Below are positions 29,211 to 31,411 of a DNA stretch of 64,000 bases, piece after piece (within the stretch, counting starts at the first letter, position 1; every line of letters begins with the position of its first letter). The notes under the pieces are model-generated. The model did no database searches and was not told the DNA's origin. It saw nothing but the letters and a program-made list of their open reading frames with translations. The stretch covers positions 1-64,000 of the forward strand of contig NZ_BOMY01000030.1 of the NCBI RefSeq assembly GCF_016862435.1, written 5' to 3'. The position numbers and the translations under genes were made by a program. The stretch comes from Paractinoplanes tereljensis. Lineage in GTDB: Bacteria > Actinomycetota > Actinomycetes > Mycobacteriales > Micromonosporaceae.

Positions 29211-31022
29211 CTACCCGTTCGTGGCGGGGCTAACCACACCGGACAGCAGCGGTGGCAGAAGCTCGGCCAGGATGGCCACGCCGTCTCGGCTCAGGACCGA
29301 CTCGGGGTGGAACTGGACGCCGGCGAAGCCGGCTCCCCGCAGGGCGTGCACGGCGGCGTCGGCCGGGTCGGCGGCGATCTCCACCGGGCCGTACGGGGAG
29401 ACCAGCAGCGACGTGTCGGCCACCGCGGCGAAGCTGGAGTAGAAGCCCACCCGGCGAGTCTGGCCGAACAGGTCCACATCCCGGGCCACGCCCTGGTAGG
29501 GCGAGTCGCGGCGGCGCAGCGGCAGGCCCAGCAGGACGGCCAGGATCTCGTGACCCAGGCAGACTCCCAGCGTGGGGATGTCGGCCGCCAGCAGGCCGGC
29601 CACCAGGTCGCGCATGGCGGCCATCTTCGGGTCGGTCAGGTCATCGGGGTCGCCGGGGCCGGGGCCGACCACGACCAGGTCGGCGGGGACGATCCCGGCG
29701 ACCGCGGCCTGCCACGGCATCACCGTGACGGTCAGGCCCAGGGCCTTCAGCTGGTGGGCGAGCATCGCGGTGAAGGTGTCCTCGCCGTCGACGATCAGGG
29801 CGCTGCGGCCGGCCAGCGACGGGATGGTCAGTGCGCCGGGGGCGCGGGAATCCAGCCAGAAACGGGCGAGGTCGGTGTTCCGTGCGGCCAGCGCCGCCCG
29901 TACCGCTTCGGTCTCGGAGGGGCGTACGGGCAACGGAGCGTCACCGGAGGCACCCAGCGCGGCCAGGATCCCGGCCGCCTTGGTGTGGGTTTCCGCCACC
30001 TCGCCGGCCGCGGTGGAATGCCGGACCAGGGTGGCACCGACCGGGACCCGCAGGGTGCCGTCCAGCGAGATCTCGGCCGAGCGGATCAGGATCGGCGCGT
30101 CCAGGGTCTGCCGGCCCTGGTCGTCGTGGCCGAGCAGGGCCAGCACCCCGCCGTAGTAGCCGCGGCCGCGGCGTTCGTGCCGGGCGATCACCCGGCAGGC
30201 GTTCTCGATCGGGCTTCCGGTGACGGTGGGGGCGAACATGGTCTCCCGCAGCACCTCGCGGACGTCCAGCGCGCCCCGGCCGGCCAGCAGATATTCGGTG
30301 TGGGTCAGGTGCGCCATCTGCTTGAGGTACGGGCCGGCCACCTGACCGCCGTGCTCGGCCACCGTGGCCATCATCTTGAGTTCCTCGTCGAGGACCATGT
30401 AGAGCTCCTCGATCTCCTTCGGGTCGGCCAGGAAGTCGAGCAGGTCGCCACTGCCGTGCCGGAAGGTGCCGCTGATCGGGTTCATCATGGTGATCCCGTC
30501 GGCGACGCTGACGTGCCGCTCGGGGGTGGCGCCGACCAGCGTGCGGGTGCCGGTGTGCACCAGGAACGTCCAGTAGGTGCCCTGCTCGGCGGCGAGCAGC
30601 CGGCCGAACGCGGCGCGCGCGGCGGCTACCGGGTCGCCGTCGACCGACGCCTGGTAGACGCGGTGGATGACGAAGTTGGCGCCCTCGCCGTGGCCGATCT
30701 CGTCGCGCAGCACCTCCTCGACGATCTCGCCGTACTCGTCGTCGGAGAGGTCGAAGCCGCCGGGGTTGAGCGTCAGCGGCCCGGCCGGGAAAGCGGTCAG
30801 CGGCTCCTTGGAAAGGGCCGAGACCAGCAGGCATTCCAGCGGGGCACCGTCGTCGACGCAGTCGAAGCCGCGTTCGGCGATCTGGCGGTAGGGCACCACG
30901 GCGAGCGTGGGCAGGCCGTCGCGGATCGGGATGTCGGCGAGGGTGGCCACCGTGATCACGTCACCGGTGAGCACCTCGACGTGGTCGGCGCCGTCGCGGT
31001 GCAGCAGGGCGAACGGTTGCAT
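29211..31022 (-). CDS. trpEG: Fused anthranilate synthase (TrpE-TrpG type)
   Basis: A 603-residue fusion. Residues 1-390 are a chorismate-using TrpE domain (NPISGTFRHG, HLTHTEYLLAGRG, FAPTVTGSPIENACRVIARHE, RGYYGGVLAL). Residues 405-595 are a class I glutamine amidotransferase domain with Cys488 in LGVCLGHE and His572/Glu574 in QFHPES. It makes anthranilate from chorismate and glutamine, the first step to tryptophan. The same fold is shared by PhzE of phenazine pathways. The tryptophan leader and attenuator just upstream argue for TrpE(G), as in Streptomyces venezuelae. GGAGGA lies before ATG 31022. Confidence 0.92.
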   Translation of the reverse strand: MQPFALLHRDGADHVEVLTGDVITVATLADIPIRDGLPTLAVVPYRQIAERGFDCVDDGAPLECLLVSALSKEPLTAFPAGPLTLNPGGFDLSDDEYGEIVEEVLRDEIGHGEGANFVIHRVYQASVDGDPVAAARAAFGRLLAAEQGTYWTFLVHTGTRTLVGATPERHVSVADGITMMNPISGTFRHGSGDLLDFLADPKEIEELYMVLDEELKMMATVAEHGGQVAGPYLKQMAHLTHTEYLLAGRGALDVREVLRETMFAPTVTGSPIENACRVIARHERRGRGYYGGVLALLGHDDQGRQTLDAPILIRSAEISLDGTLRVPVGATLVRHSTAAGEVAETHTKAAGILAALGASGDAPLPVRPSETEAVRAALAARNTDLARFWLDSRAPGALTIPSLAGRSALIVDGEDTFTAMLAHQLKALGLTVTVMPWQAAVAGIVPADLVVVGPGPGDPDDLTDPKMAAMRDLVAGLLAADIPTLGVCLGHEILAVLLGLPLRRRDSPYQGVARDVDLFGQTRRVGFYSSFAAVADTSLLVSPYGPVEIAADPADAAVHALRGAGFAGVQFHPESVLSRDGVAILAELLPPLLSGVVSPATNG

Positions 31023-31079
31023 TTGGTTTCCTCCGAAGGCGGGCGGTGCCGGCCGAGGCGGAGGGCCATGACGAAGAAC

Positions 31080-31100
31080 GGCCGCCTCGGGGAGGCGGCC
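31080..31100 (-). terminator. Attenuator terminator hairpin of trpEG
   Basis: GGCCGCCTC-GGG-GAGGCGGCC is a perfect 9-bp stem with a 3-nt loop. On the leftward transcript it is followed by GTTCTTCGTC. Its 5' arm can instead pair with GGCGGCC at 31132-31126 inside the leader, forming an antiterminator. Confidence 0.85.
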
Positions 31101-31170
31101 GCGATGGTTACGCGCGGGTGGGTGTGGCCGCCGGTTTGGCGGGCCACCACATGCTCAATCGCGCGTGCAT
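31094..31170 (-). promoter_or_regulatory. trp attenuator: alternative 1:2 and 2:3 pairings
   Basis: Three arms are visible on the leftward RNA before the terminator's final arm. GTGGC plus CGCC (arm 1, over the Trp codons) pairs with GGCG plus GCCAC (arm 2). Arm 2 GGCGGCC (31132-31126) is exactly complementary to GGCCGCC (31100-31094, arm 3). Arm 3 can pair with arm 4 to terminate. A ribosome stalled on the Trp codons would free arm 2 to pair with arm 3 and allow trpEG transcription. Confidence 0.85.
31108..31170 (-). CDS. trpL: trp leader peptide with tandem Trp codons
   Basis: A 20-codon reading frame with core MWWPAKP; Trp codons 8 and 9 are adjacent (31149-31144). It ends at TAA 31108, eight bases before the terminator stem. 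There is no strong Shine-Dalgarno sequence. TAAGCT lies about 8 bp upstream and might be the -10 of a leaderless start. ATG 31152 (codon 7) is an alternative start. Its role is to couple translation at Trp codons to transcription of trpEG. Confidence 0.85.
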   Translation of the reverse strand: MHARLSMWWPAKPAATPTRA

Positions 31171-31192
31171 GCCGACGAGCTTAGGGGCAGCG

Positions 31193-31411
31193 TCAGTGGA
31201 AAGCCAGCTGCACCGCGGTGCGGGCCCAGCGCATCCGGCCGGGGGCGCAGTCAGGATGCTCGCCGAATTCCTGCGCGACCAGCTCGGCGCAGCGCTGTTC
31301 GCCGATGCGGTCCACGGTGTCGGTCACCGCGGCCCGGATCAGCTCGGCGGGCAGCTGCTGGGATCGTTGGACGTGGGACAGGAAGAGCGCGTCGGACAGT
31401 ACGGCGTTCAT
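31193..31411 (-). CDS. Small hypothetical protein upstream of the trp leader
   Basis: A 72-residue helical protein (MNAVLSDALFLSHVQRSQQL...) with two Cys (CAELVAQEF and DCAPGRM) and no TM. A very strong GAGGAGG lies 6 bp before ATG 31411, so translation is likely. Its stop is only 22 bp before the trp leader ATG, so the trp promoter lies inside this gene or both share a transcript. The family is not recognised. Confidence 0.7.
   Translation of the reverse strand: MNAVLSDALFLSHVQRSQQLPAELIRAAVTDTVDRIGEQRCAELVAQEFGEHPDCAPGRMRWARTAVQLAFH

Follow-up and report, generated by a model that had tools for sequence, protein, structure and literature searches.

The window analysed here is a 64,000-nt stretch of DNA from Paractinoplanes tereljensis, a soil bacterium of the Actinoplanes type. 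On its minus strand, a gene at 29211..31022 with the Shine-Dalgarno sequence GGAGG (31030..31034) encodes a protein of 603 residues, most likely the fused anthranilate synthase TrpEG, in which Pfam domains for chorismate binding (PF00425, residues 95-348) and GATase (PF00117, residues 409-586) lie in one chain. Upstream on the same strand, a short ORF (31108..31170) starts with an ATG at 31170, runs for 20 sense codons to a TAA stop (31110-31108) and encodes the leader peptide MHARLSMWWPAKPAATPTRA; it has no Shine-Dalgarno sequence. Its codons 8 and 9 are tandem Trp codons, TGG TGG (31144..31149), which are conserved in related loci, and a terminator follows shortly after the stop. The sequence thus contains the 20-codon frame with two adjacent Trp codons and a stop just 5' of a terminator that the original prediction had described. 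A -10 box, TAAGCT (31178..31183, minus strand), is located 7 nt 5' of the leader ATG and has the form TAnnnT conserved in relatives; its position implies a predicted transcript start at or adjacent to the ATG. Twelve short ORFs with in-frame TGGTGG were found on the two strands of the window, and a perfect stem of at least 9 bp follows only the 31170-31108 leader. A covariance model built from 55 leaders, the window's own among them, scored 92 bits at this leader and 22.8 bits at the next best place in the window. A further small ORF on the minus strand (31193-31411, 72 aa, with a GEHPDCA motif) ends just 5' of the promoter box; it had no Pfam match, and a comparable ORF ends near the equivalent place in several relatives.

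Folding identified the arms of a classical attenuator in the leader RNA. Arm 1 (31138..31150) overlaps the Trp codons and pairs with arm 2 (31122..31132), and the minimum-energy fold contains this 1:2 hairpin (31150-31138 with 31132-31122). Arm 2 carries GGCGGCC (31132-31126), which is the exact complement of GGCCGCC (31100-31094) in arm 3 (31092..31102), as had been predicted; this pairing forms the antiterminator. Arm 3 is also the 5' arm of the terminator and pairs with arm 4 (31078..31088). Arms 2, 3 and 4 were supported by conservation in addition to the fold, and GGCC occurs in all three, giving the complementary triple gGCC-rGCy-GGCC. The predicted perfect 9-bp stem, GGCCGCCTC-CCC-GAGGCGGCC (31100-31080), is present, and the folded stem is longer, with 11 pairs between 31102-31092 and 31088-31078 (10 Watson-Crick pairs and a terminal G-U) around a CCC loop. 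The terminator begins 5 nt 3' of the leader stop codon, and 7 nt lie between the stop and the GGCCGCC of arm 3. Examined as an intrinsic terminator, it has a strong stem with a weak and interrupted U-run, both here and in relatives: the U-run TTCTTCGT (31071..31078, minus strand) covers the stem end and beyond, and 5 T were counted in the 14 nt 3' of the stem, with a mean of 4.2 in 159 leaders. Two more arms, omitted from the four of the original prediction, form a helix that we call P0. Its 5' arm, arm 0 (ACGCGCG, 31160..31166), lies in leader codons 2-4, and its 3' arm, arm 0' (CGCGCGT, 31110..31116), lies between arms 2 and 3 and extends into the TAA stop; both were supported by the fold and by covariation. 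No covariance model of Rfam release 15 matched at its gathering score in the whole 64 kb. At E values up to 5, three weak matches were obtained in 30950-31300, one of which overlapped the leader (RcsR1, with 15 bits where the gathering score is 60).

When the free RNA was folded (nt 1 = 31170), P0 (nt 5-11 with 55-61), 1:2 (nt 21-33 with 39-49) and 3:4 (nt 69-79 with 83-93) were formed. With nt 1-34 covered, as by a ribosome stalled at codon 8, and the RNA made up to nt 84, 2:3 was formed at -16.8 kcal/mol. All four arms of the predicted 1:2/2:3/3:4 switch therefore gave each helix in its expected state, 1:2 and 3:4 in the free RNA and 2:3 when the 5' part of the leader was covered. For the full RNA, the 3:4 terminator was calculated to prevail even with a stalled ribosome on the leader (-29.4 at nt 100). 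Since the terminator is favoured once arm 4 exists, the choice would be kinetic and must act during transcription, as is general to attenuation models of this type. The leader stop overlaps arm 0', and a ribosome waiting there leaves a terminator stem of 6 bp in the fold, so that release must be quick.

The leader is widely conserved. An upstream short ORF with two adjacent Trp codons was found at 107 of 110 related loci (our own and 109 others). The three exceptions were L098, for which upstream DNA was missing, L072, which has a leader with one Trp codon changed, and L104, in which none was found. Ninety-seven of the 107 leaders were distinct; the ten repeats were nearly all one genome found by two routes. 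The fused gene was present in all 66 same-genus genomes listed, and its nearest named records, own-genome records possibly excluded, were from Paractinoplanes and Actinoplanes. In a wider set, the fused gene was detected at an E value of 1e-80 in 109 of 296 genomes of the class, and the leader precedes it in several further families as well. Leaders of family f33 contain three Trp codons, mostly in WWWTAHPAAH or a close form, while those of f34 and f51 are short and WWPAS-like. In an alignment of 55 leaders made with MAFFT, 3:4 had the highest share of paired cells (91.7%) among the four helices that were counted together, and the antiterminator helix 2:3 was nearly invariant (94.3% paired, one pair changed on both sides, in 4 cells). 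Covariation of 2:3 on this alignment (0.048) was not above that of partners slid by +1 to +3 (0.049 to 0.087); because the helix is nearly invariant and its covariation is no higher than this, its support is one of conservation. For the whole structure, 44 cells were changed on both sides against 19.5 in shuffles (0 of 500 as high), and 11 pairs showed two-sided change against 8.9 in shuffles, a number reached in 35 of 500.

The start of the leader was compared among 162 distinct leaders. TAnnnT was present 4-10 nt 5' of the chosen leader start in 161 of them, at 6-7 nt in 157, and 5' of only 108 of 20842 other ATG or GTG codons in the same DNA. The choice of start codon favoured in-frame starts with a -10 box and inflates this count somewhat, but the inflation is small since the background is only 0.5% per codon. 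The sole leader without the box, L226, belongs to the leader-less side of the enzyme tree described below and is a chance ORF. Shine-Dalgarno-like motifs preceded 2 of the 162 leaders (160 had none) and 142 of the 162 synthase genes. Because a TAnnnT box stands before the start and a Shine-Dalgarno sequence is missing in nearly all relatives, the leader mRNA is probably leaderless, a probable feature that the present analysis adds to the original prediction. In S. lividans, the mean distance from the -10 box to the start is 6.3 nt (PMC8079986), and TrpL1 (MFAHSTRNWWWTAHPAAH) before trpE and TrpL2 before trpS are reported there as transcribed without a 5' untranslated leader (PMC8079986).

The known Trp leaders share many of these features. 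Tryptophan-dependent control by the S. venezuelae trpEG attenuator has experimental support (Lin, Paradkar and Vining 1998, as cited in PMC4833913 and PMC1262725), and that gene, like the present one, codes for a fused anthranilate synthase that resembles PhzE (both traits as given in PMC3111181 and PMC5897657) and is preceded by a Trp leader. The leaders predicted for Corynebacterium and Streptomyces contain tandem TGG, a GC-rich terminator and the triple gGCC-rGCy-GGCC, all as here (Seliverstov et al. 2005, PMC1262725). In S. lividans TK24, trpL1 (before trpE) and trpL2 (before trpS) are described with a leaderless leader peptide, as is probable here, and with hairpins, and trpE with a monocistronic arrangement, as here (PMC8079986). 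Two Trp codons are present here against three in S. lividans TrpL1 and one in TrpL2, and the ORF here, unlike those of trpL1 and trpL2, reaches to just before the terminator; we met no mention of a 5'-end helix for the S. lividans leaders (PMC8079986). A comparison with Streptomyces leaders had been proposed as a check; the f33 leaders match S. lividans TrpL1, and for this reason f33 was taken as Streptomyces. The present leader adds one more to the actinobacterial trp attenuators already known (S. venezuelae, S. lividans trpL1, and those of Streptomyces and Corynebacterium in PMC1262725). The present analysis adds breadth, a link to enzyme phylogeny, a probable leaderless start and, above all, P0. 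Across Micromonosporaceae, Frankiaceae, Kutzneria, Streptomyces-type and other actinobacteria, it documents a Trp switch for which no model of Rfam 15 gave a match here.

The leader of the E. coli trp operon works by the same 1:2, 2:3 and 3:4 logic, with the Trp codons in arm 1. Its ORF is led by a Shine-Dalgarno sequence and is followed by an operon, against one fused gene here, and we know of no 5'-end helix in it. At the present locus, a short ORF with tandem Trp codons lies upstream of a Trp biosynthesis gene, and arm 1 over the Trp codons pairs with arm 2, arm 2 with arm 3 and arm 3 with arm 4, as in the classical attenuator. We consider it very probable that this leader attenuates transcription in response to Trp by way of the translating ribosome, with a leader mRNA that is probably leaderless and before what is most likely an anthranilate synthase gene. 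The tandem Trp codons at 107 of 110 loci, the conserved arms, the alternative folds and the published relatives all support the attenuator reading with which the analysis began.

From the ORF, the Trp codons, the promoter box, the helices and their mutual exclusion, as seen in sequence comparison and calculated folds, we infer a start site, termination in vivo, a response to Trp and a role for P0 as follows. Transcription would start at the leader AUG, judging from the conserved -10 box, and a ribosome would begin on the 5' end of the RNA. When charged tRNA-Trp is ample, the ribosome would pass the two Trp codons and leave at the stop. After its release, 1:2 would form and P0 would close around it, bringing together the 5' end of the RNA and the segment between arms 2 and 3. 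With arm 2 locked in this way, the 3:4 hairpin would stop transcription. When charged tRNA-Trp is short, the ribosome would stall at codons 8-9 and cover arms 0 and 1, so that neither P0 nor 1:2 could form; arm 2 would then pair with arm 3, the terminator would fail and TrpEG would be made. P0 is expected to strengthen the locked state and may hinder the loading of new ribosomes at the 5' end. The interrupted U-run here and in relatives would also fit control by translation or by Rho-dependent termination, with the GC hairpin a weak intrinsic terminator, and S. lividans trpL2 is likewise described without a U-rich stretch (PMC8079986). We regard such control as unlikely, because 3:4 is the best paired of the four helices, arm 3 is common to terminator and antiterminator as in transcription attenuation, and the Shine-Dalgarno sequence of the synthase gene lies outside the hairpins.

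The identity of the enzyme was examined by domain searches and phylogeny. Its best match of known structure was PhzE (3R74, 532 bits; next 72 bits). The PhzE-like fused enzyme of S. venezuelae (SvTrpEG) is cited as an anthranilate synthase (PMC3111181, PMC5897657), and sequences are said to give no indication for PhzE against anthranilate synthase (PMC5958127). In a fast tree of 145 of 210 rows, in which near-copies were thinned and L098 was excluded as its upstream DNA is missing, 98 leader-bearing rows and 11 without a leader fell on one side and 35 leader-less rows with PhzE on the opposite side, with 99% support. In a careful tree of 48 of the 210 rows, drawn from both sides of the fast tree, the branch between the leader-bearing rows and those of PhzE and the leader-less genes had support of 100/99 and was present in all 200 bootstrap trees. 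The enzyme joins both domains in one chain and groups apart from PhzE, in trees that do not contain the S. venezuelae sequence by name. The 11 leader-less rows on the leader side comprise L072 with its one-Trp-codon leader, L152, in which arms 2-4 are kept in the stretch examined, and L104 and eight f41 rows, in which no leader was found. In genera g74 and g132 of f41 (L202, L204, L206-L209, L211 and L216), where no leader was found, the synthase gene in several cases appears by eye to carry a -10 box of its own immediately 5' of the start codon.

Three first-shell residues have been said to separate PhzE from anthranilate synthase, Ser217, Ser368 and Thr369 (PMC5906492). The motifs NPISGT and GSTLVRHS were used to locate the corresponding positions in the chain (219, 370 and 371, a constant offset of two), and the window enzyme has Ser, Ala and Thr, two of the three as in PhzE. 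As a test of PhzE against TrpEG these residues were rejected: the Ser and the Thr are common to both sides of the tree (one Cys among 174), and Ala occupies the middle position in every one of the 174 leader-side and in 30 of 35 other-side sequences. None of the best 25 of 44 NCBIfam models reached its cut-off with the enzyme, and the score for TrpE-clade3 (TIGR01815) was 138.2 bits against a curated cut-off of 739.15. The ordinary trpE of the same genome (L002, contig C25, 802-2331; NF010086 above cut-off) lies directly behind hisI with no gap for a leader. The genome therefore most likely has two anthranilate synthase genes under different control, the second trpE being absent from the original prediction.

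The best structural match, the two shared residues and the presence of an ordinary trpE would all suit a leader that regulates a PhzE-type ADIC synthase for a secondary metabolite and not Trp synthesis. This seems very improbable to us: PhzE lies on the leader-less side of the tree (100/99), the gene occurs in all 66 same-genus genomes listed, SvTrpEG is PhzE-like yet cited as an anthranilate synthase (PMC3111181, PMC5897657), and the neighbouring genes that were scanned (MFS transporter, peptidase S66, small ORF, response regulator, histidine kinase and DUF3159) included no phenazine gene. The original call of TrpE(G) rather than PhzE stands on the phylogeny and the published S. venezuelae enzyme. 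The claim that the leader settles it does not hold, because what a Trp leader reveals is regulation in response to Trp and not the reaction catalysed. Most likely, the enzyme is a second anthranilate synthase beside the ordinary TrpE, and as an additional one it may be switched on by Trp shortage, a presumed division of labour. Presence or absence of the leader offers a sequence rule by which PhzE-like fused enzymes can be divided between a Trp side and a PhzE side.

The same kind of leader was found before other genes. In the own genome, the covariance model matched the leader in the window with an E value of 5.2e-15 and a site outside the window (contig C60, 228397-228501, which is L250 1398-1502) with 4.1e-6; the next match had 0.095. 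The C60 leader encodes VRTMNLCWWLP followed by a stop, has the same architecture with a -10 box 6 nt before its GTG, and precedes trpS (TIGR00233, 304.8 bits, cut-off 176.75). A second leader before trpS is thus common to this genome and S. lividans (trpL2; PMC8079986). At E values of at most 0.01, the model matched 63 of 197 class genomes, with 80 places listed. Fourteen of these were fetched as non-trpEG sites, our own trpS among them: eleven leaders stood before trpS (four assigned by NCBIfam and seven by reading the sequence), one before trpD and two before TrpE-clade3 fused enzymes. The trpD leader, MIAYSFLWWPAS with P0, was observed at L257 2730-2827 (minus strand). The two TrpE-clade3 fused synthases with a Trp leader of this kind, L259 (514-628) and L263 (541-652), belong to f31, and the eight PhzE-like genes of f31 in the fast tree are without a leader. 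Since f31 has leaders on its TrpE-clade3 but not on its PhzE-like genes, the module seems to track function rather than a single gene lineage.

The arms of P0 vary by group while their complementarity is kept: ACGCGCG/CGCGCGT here, ACCCGC/GCGGGT in Catellatospora, GTACGCGA/TCGCGTAC in f34/g72 and CGTCGA/TCGACG in f51/g95. For the comparison of own with swapped partners, 32 groups among 159 leaders contributed at most three members each (L210 and L214, with no terminator stem found, were dropped from 161); group labels are genera names and genome codes, and the same genus may occur under two labels. P0 scored 17.3 with its own partners against 15.0 with swapped ones, and 0 of 20000 permutations were as high. 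With 12 family-level units, in which f1 was merged with Micromonosporaceae and f32 with Frankiaceae by inference and Catellatospora was kept separate, the values were 15.6 against 12.6, again with 0 of 20000 as high. In the same 32-group swap, 2:3 and 1:2 were matched by 19 and 56 of 20000 permutations, a further control by 4263, and four control segments gave no positive signal (2343, 10944, 19942 and 19997 of 20000); the promoter and 15-nt post-terminator controls were below the permuted mean. Among the 14 non-trpEG leaders, several of them close relatives, P0 scored 16.4 against 12.7 when swapped (0 of 20000 as high). Individually, against 200 shuffles, P0 was no better in L255 and L256 (61 and 104 as high), and middling in L261 (21), L262 (16) and L250 (11); in the other nine, at most 5 shuffles were as high. 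P0 was also no better than shuffles in f41; in Dactylosporangium, Kutzneria, f16 and Salinispora it did not exceed foreign partners, and in f1/g4 and f8 it was about equal to them. On the alignment of 55 leaders, 73.5% of P0 cells were paired and 5 of 7 pairs had changes on both sides, although the 3' arm is misregistered by about 2 columns in Streptomyces-type rows, so that pair counts on the alignment underrate P0. We weighted the partner swaps above alignment covariation because they need no alignment.

Allowing nt 1-12 to pair gave a mean gain of 8.1 kcal/mol, against 4.1 with nt 4-14 shuffled. P0 is nested around 1:2 and the minimum-energy fold merges the two into one long hairpin, which would agree with a plain four-arm attenuator as in E. 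coli, in which P0 is the passive outer part of 1:2 and the 5' end itself plays no separate part. Furthermore, 1:2 alone was weaker than 2:3 in only 19 of 159 leaders (P0 reversed this in 18 of 159), so that on paper P0 is not needed to win elsewhere. Against a merely passive P0, the outer three pairs of 1:2, which lie beside it, are not conserved (paired in 40% of cells) while P0 is (73.5%, 5 of 7 pairs two-sided), in an alignment that misplaces some 3' arms. The partner-swap signal of P0 is also stronger than that of 1:2 or 2:3, and in the examples compared P0 begins no later than nt 11 of the leader, once one nt 5' of the leader. Taken together, we hold the plain four-arm attenuator to be somewhat less likely than not.

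The footprint of a ribosome reaches upstream of the codon being read. Downstream, it extends for about 12 nt (PMC4833913). The first Trp codon was codon 7-9 in 154 of 162 leaders, and with the usual footprint arm 0 would therefore lie under a stalled ribosome. We propose, as a tentative reading that falls just short of an even chance, that actinobacterial Trp leaders are an attenuation variant with a fifth and a sixth arm, in which the first codons of an mRNA lacking a 5' UTR also serve as an RNA arm, paired with the segment just before the terminator. This arm would be masked by a ribosome stalled at Trp codons 7-9 and freed after the ribosome leaves, so that P0 would report a vacant 5' end, lock the antiterminator arm and shut the 5' end to further leaderless initiation, as part of a portable module on trpEG, trpS, trpD and TrpE-clade3 genes. 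A classical-attenuation computer model of S. venezuelae trpE showed no Trp dependence unless RNA triplexes were added (PMC4833913); this reading could explain that result, P0 being a simpler candidate than triplexes for the part absent from the model. We met no mention of P0 in the portions of the trp leader literature at hand, which was not searched by any term for it, and we do not claim that it is absent from print; the alignment of Seliverstov et al. 2005 starts at the Trp codons by its legend, so that arm 0 is outside it (PMC1262725). As a covarying helix at the very start of what is probably a leaderless leader, P0 is testable by two compensating changes.

Actinoplanes-type leaders have two lengths. 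They either stop right after WWPA or read through to a stop just 5' of the terminator, as here; the codon 3' of WWPA is TGA (TAA in L019) in the short leaders and AAA, AGA, CGA, TCA or similar in the long ones. The RNA arms are much alike in both, and are therefore kept whether translated or not. Between L020, L022, L030 and others on the one hand and L001, L004 and L005 on the other, leader length flips by the codon after WWPA, which provides a natural experiment on stop position in attenuation.
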